A stretch of DNA of 64,000 bases from Cellulomonas chengniuliangii. Lineage in GTDB: Bacteria; Actinomycetota; Actinomycetes; Actinomycetales; Cellulomonadaceae. Below, in pieces: positions 25,636-27,572 of the stretch (positions are counted from its first letter, which is position 1; each line of letters begins with the position of its first letter). Under the pieces are notes generated by a model. It did not search any database, was not told the DNA's origin, and saw only the letters and a list, made by a program, of their open reading frames with translations. Where the stretch lies: the NCBI RefSeq assembly GCF_024508335.1, contig NZ_CP101988.1:1302001-1366000 (forward strand), read 5' to 3'. Both the position numbers and the translations under genes were made by a program.

Positions 25636-26442
25636 TCAGCGGAGCGTGGTGGGGGAGACCCCGTCGTCCGTGGGCAGATCGCCCTGCACGGTGGCCGTCA
25701 CGGTGAGTGCTTGGAGCACGACCTGCCCGCCGTAGCTCGACAGGAACGCGGTGTCGGTGGCGTCCCGGCCTGTCGCGATCCGCAGCATCGACGCGCGCGG
25801 CGCCAGGCCGGTGGCGTCGACGACGGTCCAGGCGCCGTCCACGAAGGCCTCGACGACCGCGTGGAAGTCCATGGGGCTGAGCCCGGGGGCGTAGACGGAC
25901 ACCAGCCGCGCGGGGACGTCACGTGCCCGCAGCAGGGCGATCACCAGGTGCGCGAAGTCGCGGCACACCCCGCGGCGCGTCAGGACGGTGTCCGTGGCGC
26001 CGTCGGTCGGCCCGCTCGAGCCGGAGAGGTACGTGACGTGCCCCCGCACCCACCGCACGACGGCCCCGAGGAGCTCCCTGCCGGCCAGTGGCCCGAACTG
26101 GTCCTGGGCGAACGCGAGCAGCTTGTCCGACTGCGCGTAGCGGCTGGGCCGCAGCGACTCCAGCACGTCGTTCTCCTCGACGGCCGGCGGGAGGTCGAGG
26201 CCGGAGGCCTGTGCCCAGTAGTCCACGACGACCGCGCCCGGGGGAGCGGCGACCCGGTGCACGCGCGAGCCGTGGGGGCCTTTCAGCTCCACGACGTCGA
26301 GCGGCTCATCCGCATGAGACACGGCCAGACGCTCCTGGCAGTCGTAGGCGCCGTCGGCGACCGCCAGGGCGAGGTACAGGTCGCTGGGCCCGAGCACGTC
26401 GAGCTCGAGGTGGGAGGTGACGGTCCGCAGCACCGACGTCAC
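25636..26442 (-). CDS. Transglutaminase-like family protein
   Basis: A cysteine-protease-fold protein of about 268 residues, likely cytoplasmic. The Cys-His-Asp triad is visible as GVCRDFAH (Cys), MDFHAVVEAF (His) and TVVDATGLAPR (Asp), preceded by an N-terminal beta domain (LRTVTSHLELDV). Enzymes of this fold act as peptidases, amidases or crosslinkers; the substrate is unknown. Start choice is open: GTG codons at 26469, 26442 and 26433 are all in frame. The first codons lie in a repeated sequence also found at 27321-27533, so part of its 5' end has been copied next to tRNA-Asn. Convergent with dnaG, 6 bp apart. Confidence 0.82.
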   Translation of the reverse strand: MTSVLRTVTSHLELDVLGPSDLYLALAVADGAYDCQERLAVSHADEPLDVVELKGPHGSRVHRVAAPPGAVVVDYWAQASGLDLPPAVEENDVLESLRPSRYAQSDKLLAFAQDQFGPLAGRELLGAVVRWVRGHVTYLSGSSGPTDGATDTVLTRRGVCRDFAHLVIALLRARDVPARLVSVYAPGLSPMDFHAVVEAFVDGAWTVVDATGLAPRASMLRIATGRDATDTAFLSSYGGQVVLQALTVTATVQGDLPTDDGVSPTTLR

Positions 26443-26558
26443 GACCTTTCGGGAGGGCACGGCTGGCACAGGGCGCGCTCGGCCCGTCGAGTACCGCGCG
26501 CAGATGAAGTGTGGGGCTGCGCGAAGCCCTGCGCCAGTGGGCGCCGTGGGCTTGAAAA

Positions 26559-26590
26559 AGGTCAGGCCCCCTCGAGAGGGGGCCTGACCT
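26559..26590. terminator. Perfect hairpin, left copy of the tRNA-Asn terminator
   Basis: Arms of 15 bp (26559-26573 with 26576-26590) pair perfectly around a 2-nt centre. The same hairpin is found at 27455-27486 behind the intact tRNA-Asn. On the minus strand it is followed by TTTTTCAAG, giving a good intrinsic terminator. Confidence 0.8.
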
Positions 26591-26603
26591 GGTGGAGCCT
26601 GTG

Positions 26604-26637
26604 CTCCCTCGACTGGACTCGAACCAGTAACCGTCCG
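26604..26637 (-). pseudogene. tRNA-Asn 3'-half remnant (att-like)
   Basis: These 34 nt equal the 3' part of the intact tRNA-Asn (27500-27533), from the 3' strand of the anticodon stem through the T arm to the discriminator base. The 5' half is absent; the sequence departs from the tRNA exactly at the anticodon loop. This is the pattern left by integration into a tRNA gene, where the displaced 3' end remains at the far end of the insert. Confidence 0.9.
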
Positions 26638-26646
26638 TTCCCTGGG

Positions 26647-27294
26647 TTAGGCCAGGTGGCGAGCGATCCGAAACCCGACATCGTCGATCCGCAGAGTCGG
26701 ATGGCTGCGCCGGCGCACGGAGGCGCGGCAGCTCCAGTGCTCGTCGAACCAGCCGCCACCGCGCAGCACCCGGTACGTGCCGTAGACCTCGGGGTCGTAG
26801 AGGTCCCAGCACCATTCCCACACGTTGCCGAGGGTGTCGTAGAAGCCCCAGGCGTTGGGCTCCTTGCCGCCGACCGCGTGCAGCCGTTCGCCGGAGTTGG
26901 CGCGGTACCAGGCGCTCACCGCTAGCGGTCCGTATCGCGGGCCGCTCGTCCCGGCGCGACAGGCGTACTCCCACTCCGCCTCGGTAGGCAGGCGGTAGCC
27001 GTCCGCTGACCGGTTCCATTCGACGTGCTCATCGGCGGGGTCGAGCCGATAGGCAGGAGTGAGGTCTTCGTGCCGTGACAGGGTGTTGCAGAACTCTGCC
27101 ACCTCCCACCAGGAGATCTCCGTCACCGGTAGCCGCCCTTCGTCCGCAGGCGGCGGCGGGAGGTTCAGGATTCGGTGAAAGTAGGCCCGGGTGACGGGCG
27201 TCGCCGACATCTCGTACGCACTGATCTCCACCGGCCAGCTTGCGCTGGTGCGGCGGTCGGTCAGGGTCACGGCGCCAGGCGCGACAGAGATCAT
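26647..27294 (-). CDS. Formylglycine-generating-enzyme/SUMF1-fold protein, cargo of the tRNA-Asn cassette
   Basis: A 215-residue protein made almost wholly of one FGE-sulfatase (SUMF1) domain. Landmarks: VTEISWWEVAEFCNTLSRHE, RLPTEAEWEYACRAGT, NAWGFYDTLGNVWEWCWD, YRVLRGGGWFD, and the C-terminal CRASVRRRSHPTLR / DDVGFRIAR. This fold serves formylglycine-generating enzymes, ergothioneine-type EgtB enzymes, pyoverdine tailoring enzymes and target-binding proteins. The paired active-site Cys of true FGE is not obvious, so it may not modify sulfatases. The ATG at 27294 is used (GTG at 27306 possible). The gene ends 10 bp before the tRNA-Asn remnant and is visibly lower in GC than its neighbours, suggesting acquisition. 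Confidence 0.8.
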   Translation of the reverse strand: MISVAPGAVTLTDRRTSASWPVEISAYEMSATPVTRAYFHRILNLPPPPADEGRLPVTEISWWEVAEFCNTLSRHEDLTPAYRLDPADEHVEWNRSADGYRLPTEAEWEYACRAGTSGPRYGPLAVSAWYRANSGERLHAVGGKEPNAWGFYDTLGNVWEWCWDLYDPEVYGTYRVLRGGGWFDEHWSCRASVRRRSHPTLRIDDVGFRIARHLA

Positions 27295-27320
27295 CGTGCA
27301 GGTCACGGAAGAACGTCCTC

Positions 27321-27533
27321 CAGCACCGAAGTCACGACCTTTCGGGAGGGGCACGGCTGGCACAGGGTGCGCCCGGATCGTCGGGGACCCGTGCGCAGAT
27401 GAAGTGTGGGGCTGCGCCGGGCGTCGCGCCATTGTGCCCCAATGGGCGTGAAACAGGTCAGGCCCCCTCGAGAGGGGGCCTGACCTGGTGGAGCCTGTGC
27501 TCCCTCGACTGGACTCGAACCAGTAACCGTCCG
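27321..27533. repeat. Right copy of the ~210-bp direct repeat, overlapping intact tRNA-Asn
   Basis: Partner of 26428-26637. It contains a decayed copy of the first codons of the transglutaminase gene (soon ending in a stop), the CAGATGAAGTGTGGGGCTGC stretch, the hairpin at 27455-27486 and the 3' half of tRNA-Asn. Identity stops at base 27533, at the anticodon loop of the tRNA. Confidence 0.9.
27455..27486. terminator. Perfect hairpin downstream of tRNA-Asn
   Basis: Fifteen-bp arms around a 2-nt centre, starting 14 nt past the 3' end of tRNA-Asn (minus strand). On the minus strand it is followed by GTTTCACG, a weaker U tract than the left copy. Likely the tRNA terminator. Confidence 0.8.
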
Positions 27534-27572
27534 ATTAACAGTCGGATGCTCTGCCAATTGAGCTACGAGGGA
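27500..27572 (-). tRNA. tRNA-Asn(GTT)
   Basis: A full 73-nt cloverleaf: acceptor TCCCTCG/CGAGGGA, D arm AGCTCAATTGGCAGAGC, anticodon loop CTGTTAA (GTT), T arm GGTTCGAGTCC and discriminator G. CCA is not encoded. The 3' half is repeated at 26604-26637, making this gene the integration target of the adjacent cassette; the tRNA is reconstituted and looks functional. Confidence 0.96.

Follow-up and report, generated by a model that had tools for sequence, protein, structure and literature searches.

Cis-mobilizable elements (CIMEs) are decayed remnants of ICEs or IMEs that keep attL and attR (PMC5704250), and islands without integration modules occur at an RNA gene, ssrA, in Dehalococcoides (PMC3146451). 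Junctions located in the anticodon region point to tRNA integrases (PMC4383910), and in Vibrio cholerae arrays of orphan genes have been ascribed to homology-facilitated illegitimate recombination (PMC5361080). Here we describe a locus at a tRNA-Asn hot spot, in which two copies of the tRNA 3' half enclose a single foreign gene of the FGE fold and no integrase. We consider it fairly likely that the locus is a non-autonomous, CIME-like remnant of an island that had entered at the anticodon region of tRNA-Asn and has lost its integrase, keeping one foreign FGE-fold gene.

The source genome (G000) is a single contig of 3.57 Mb (99.99% complete, 0.08% contamination), and the locus lies inside the window, the whole 64-kb stretch of DNA that was analysed. 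The comparison set consisted of six other species of the same genus (the sister species G001 to G006) and 200 genomes of the family; G094, G099 and G164 belong to other genera of the family. Searches for a donor or for an FGE–repeat unit covered 222 family genomes. The features of the locus are as follows.

27499 to 27572, minus strand: intact tRNA-Asn (GTT) gene, the integration target (ARAGORN)
27321 to 27533, minus strand: proximal repeat copy R, comprising the tRNA 3' half, the terminator and a TG-like upstream region as far as GTGCTG
27454 to 27487, minus strand: terminator-like perfect inverted repeat (I18) behind the intact tRNA-Asn
26647 to about 27306, minus strand: FGE/SUMF1-fold gene (FGE), 219 codons from GTG (Pfam PF03781, 4e-36)
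26428 to 26637, minus strand: distal repeat copy R', comprising the tRNA 3' fragment, terminator, TG upstream region and TG start
26603 to 26637, minus strand: tRNA-Asn 3'-half fragment, by its sequence a displaced attachment half-site (35 of 35 nt as in the intact gene)
25636 to 26469, minus strand: transglutaminase-like gene (TG), conserved neighbour on the far side of the site (PF01841, 2e-18)

On the minus strand the intact tRNA-Asn is followed by its hairpin, a spacer, the FGE reading frame, the tRNA 3' fragment, a second hairpin and spacer, and TG. The initial annotation had described an intact tRNA-Asn, one FGE-fold gene and a second copy of the tRNA 3' half on the same strand, and ARAGORN, the PF03781 match and the repeat alignment bear this out. 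The direct repeat (26428–26637 against 27321–27533) matches at 89% over 213 nt and contains an identical core of 79 bp (26559–26637 = 27455–27533), in agreement with the 79 identical and about 210 similar bp first reported; R and R' differ in 23 columns, none of them inside the core. The second copy had been said to begin exactly at the anticodon loop. This holds to within a base or two, the copy actually starting roughly one base beyond the loop, on the 3' side of the anticodon stem. The gap between the repeats is filled by a single open reading frame, FGE, which stops about 9 bp short of the tRNA fragment. No trace of an integrase and no significant integrase similarity was found in the repeat-bounded interval, and the original description of an att-like flanked insertion without integrase at tRNA-Asn is supported by this result together with the repeats. 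A 34-mer from the repeat, allowing up to three mismatches, has two sites in the source genome and as a rule one in relatives (their own tRNA-Asn gene), and the reversed pattern gave no match in 200 of 200 genomes; the repeat is therefore not due to chance. The 34-mer search revealed no further intact tRNA-Asn in the source genome.

The repeat passes the terminator, crosses the TG upstream region and ends at a conserved GTGCTG, the probable start codon of TG, so that FGE occupies the place of TG and is preceded by another, diverged copy of that upstream region. Within this region a block TGGCGC ... CACACTTCA ... TGC is conserved at the orthologous loci, exactly in most and with one-base variants in G002 and G006. 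TG has orthologues in seven of seven species, and its true start is probably the GTG near 26435. Direct reading shows that a short frame from the GTG of the proximal repeat terminates at a TGA overlapping the GTG of FGE, and FGE may now be read from the copied TG promoter region. Further upstream, a tRNA-Met gene (window 28202–28278) is on the same strand as tRNA-Asn here and on the opposite strand in G001, G002, G003, G004 and G006; about 100 bp around it match these five species in reverse, representing a small local inversion in the source lineage.

Comparison of the tRNA-Asn locus in relatives, as the initial annotation had proposed, revealed an empty site and differing cargo in the sister species: tRNA-Asn is a real integration hot spot in related genomes. 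The interval between tRNA-Asn and TG is empty in G002 (about 160 bp) and holds about 30 kb in G001; in G003 and G004 it is taken up by other genes, about 11 kb and about 6.5 kb respectively, and shows no repeat. G005 carries a 33-kb island with a tyrosine integrase, bounded by a 26-bp tRNA repeat. In G006, two stacked units are present at tRNA-Asn. Each is closed by a decayed copy of the tRNA 3' part (at 5721 and 3949 of L025) and contains a C-terminal stub of a tyrosine integrase and one main gene; because of these stubs the small units are read as decayed islands. In the other genera, an integrase adjoins a second tRNA-Asn 3' copy in G094, G099 and G164. Across one genus the site is found unoccupied, filled by a full island, occupied by stacked decayed units and, here, with what is probably a one-gene remnant. 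Two further observations concern the sister species. In the G005 island (L084/L027) the terminator is repeated along with the tRNA 3' end, the linker between them having diverged, and the two G006 cargo genes (L025:3949-6963) are paralogues of about 215 codons, 31% identical, with a common PSWLARNRD motif and no Pfam or PADLOC match.

None of the tRNA-Asn integrases of relatives has a close counterpart in the source genome. Its sole clear phage-type tyrosine recombinase (G000:C1:2771343-2772467; L250:3343-4467) lies beside tRNA-Met, possibly marking another island end. This enzyme was rejected as an own-genome integrase acting in trans, being 27–31% identical to the tRNA-Asn integrases and located beside tRNA-Met.

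The product of FGE has the FGE-sulfatase domain PF03781 (125 bits, cut-off 23; E = 4e-36), which assigns it to the FGE/SUMF1 fold. Homology begins at an ATG four codons inside the GTG start, homologues aligning from residue 5; FGE homologues start about eight codons before a conserved MIxV, here the start is four codons before it, at the junction. The initial annotation had allowed for old vertical descent if relatives all shared FGE and both repeats; FGE is absent from all six sister species and occurs in 26 of the 200 family genomes. The nearest homologues are at most 68% identical and are scattered among Streptomyces, Salinispora, Kitasatospora and others, and the GC3 of FGE is 0.85, compared with about 0.94 for two neighbouring genes. 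Given its absence from the sisters, its lower GC3 and its best match of 68% to scattered actinobacterial homologues, FGE is a foreign, acquired gene. The homologues share no conserved neighbours that might serve as a clue to function, and no tRNA repeat was found at those examined. One of them, in Kitasatospora (L131:4834-5651, 67% identical), lies 66 bp downstream of a same-strand tRNA-Met, without a tRNA 3' repeat behind it. The closest solved sequence to the FGE protein is a Treponema variable protein, and a defence-family search with FGE and the G006 cargo gave no match. The protein has a single cysteine in the GGGWFDEHWSCRASVRRR stretch, where a 62%-identical homologue in G164 has valine. 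The canonical formylglycine-generating enzyme has a conserved C-terminal cysteine pair, which would correspond to this stretch. The protein may well not be a canonical formylglycine enzyme, and any function assigned to it would be a guess.

The distribution of changes between R and R' bears on the origin of the two copies. The tRNA fragment shows 0 changes in 35 positions, against 23 in 134 columns (17%) outside the 79-bp core (Fisher p = 0.005); about six would be expected in the fragment had both copies diverged in place after a local duplication. Since the fragment is functionless yet unmutated while the spacer is 17% changed, the spacers probably differed before they came together. The two copies thus probably come from different strains, one having been imported, and the suggestion in the initial annotation of import in place of local duplication gains support from these counts. 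Gene conversion of the tRNA part is a loophole in this argument. The donor was probably a related strain less distant than G002 and G006; the spacers of these two can hardly be aligned. When the copies were compared with the sister species in order to tell which is native, the spacers aligned only at their ends. No donor of the proximal repeat was found in 222 family genomes, viral contigs, plasmids or phages. The one match among the viral contigs proved to be normal bacterial flanking DNA that includes a complete tRNA-Asn, and was rejected as donor. Because the fragment has decayed less than those in G006, the event here probably took place later than the ones there, and the insertion at tRNA-Asn is probably recent.

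If the locus is an island remnant, the distal junction in the anticodon stem would be the work of a tyrosine integrase, and the original island would have ended with FGE. A related strain would have supplied the proximal repeat, with its tRNA 3' half, terminator and TG upstream region, either as attP DNA of the element with a host-like flank, as the G005 island carries the terminator, or as the tRNA–TG DNA of an island-free relative joined illegitimately to the 5' end of FGE, with loss of the integrase in the same step. Such a joining accounts together for the repeat stopping exactly at the TG start and for the absence of an integrase. The unit would probably be fixed unless a foreign integrase or inter-repeat recombination removed it, which would leave tRNA-Asn intact. 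Some observations speak against a remnant. With no integrase remnant in the interval, an integrase origin has to be read from the junction position and the neighbours; no strain with a fuller island ending in FGE, and no FGE-bearing parent, was found among the family genomes searched; and the repeat extends about 130 bp past the terminator, further than the attP similarity in other islands examined. A remnant of this kind hints at a way in which islands may be reduced to one gene behind a copied host promoter region.

A specific version of the remnant explanation, possible but rather doubtful, invokes homology-facilitated illegitimate recombination as the source of the present form. The resident would have been a full tRNA-Asn island with FGE last; DNA from an island-free relative would recombine homologously upstream of or in tRNA-Asn, and a second, illegitimate joint linking the donor's TG start codon to the 5' end of FGE would bring in the proximal repeat and delete the rest of the island. 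One step would account for the stopping of the repeat at the TG start codon, the R/R' difference, the start of FGE at that point (with four codons before MIxV in place of about eight) and the loss of the integrase. Events of this type have been described in other bacteria (PMC5361080, PMC3240628), although they are reported as rare (PMC5361080), and the donor search outlined above yielded no strain that could have supplied the DNA. Local duplication of the tRNA–terminator–TG upstream region around an inserted FGE, followed by divergence with gene conversion keeping the tRNA part alike, is very unlikely: it fits the finding that beyond the tRNA the repeat is host sequence, but it requires conversion confined to the core in order to keep a non-functional tRNA fragment unmutated beside the changed spacer, and it leaves the anticodon-stem junction unexplained.

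The initial annotation had also raised two options, a minimal cassette mobilised by an integrase in trans and a deleted island. The former, a 0.9-kb circle of FGE and repeat, appears highly improbable. In its favour, the 79 bp shared by the two half-sites carry no mutation and FGE has an open frame, but the genome lacks an integrase close to the tRNA-Asn ones, the repeat occurs only at these two places in it, a search of 222 family genomes, plasmids and phages gave no FGE–repeat unit, and the small units of G006, which are comparable, carry integrase stubs and are decayed islands. The cassette therefore finds no support, and a deleted island fits better. We give hardly any credence to the existence of a class of sub-kilobase single-gene tRNA cassettes, in which the tRNA 3' half, terminator and promoter of the next gene would form the attachment DNA, the inserted gene would be expressed at once and outside integrases would be used; it would amount to a very small gene-capture route at tRNA genes, and nothing here favours it. 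The chance of an assembly artefact is negligible. Short-read assembly can go wrong at a pair of repeats spaced about 0.9 kb from each other, but these are not identical, the genome is one contig with the completeness and low contamination given above, and a related anatomy is present in the independent genome G006.

Read as an island remnant, the locus resembles a CIME. Two attachment-like tRNA 3' copies flank it, in that the 35-nt tRNA 3' half is present at both ends with an anticodon-stem junction; integration and transfer genes are absent, the single FGE frame filling the interval; and the site is a hot spot, at which one relative has decayed elements stacked on each other. Unlike known CIMEs, it is 0.9 kb long with one gene, its repeat reaches the start codon of the next gene, and its att-like sites are recognized from their sequence. 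As to an origin by deletion from an ICE or IME, relatives have islands with an integrase at this site, and no FGE-bearing parent element has been found. The ssrA islands of Dehalococcoides are likewise bounded by direct repeats of an RNA-gene 3' end, some without an integration module and with integrase-bearing relatives near, but they involve a serine recombinase and tmRNA and contain more genes. The locus shares with the anticodon-class tRNA islands of Islander (PMC4383910) the anticodon-region junction and the displaced 3' fragment downstream of a regenerated tRNA; Islander demands an integrase gene and the locus has none, so it does not qualify as an autonomous tRNA genomic island. The V. 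cholerae arrays resemble it in having a homologous anchor on one side and a non-homologous joint on the other, but the event proposed there replaces effector genes, whereas here it would truncate a tRNA island. Overall, the structure is of a known kind, unusual mainly for its small size and notable also for its duplicated upstream region.
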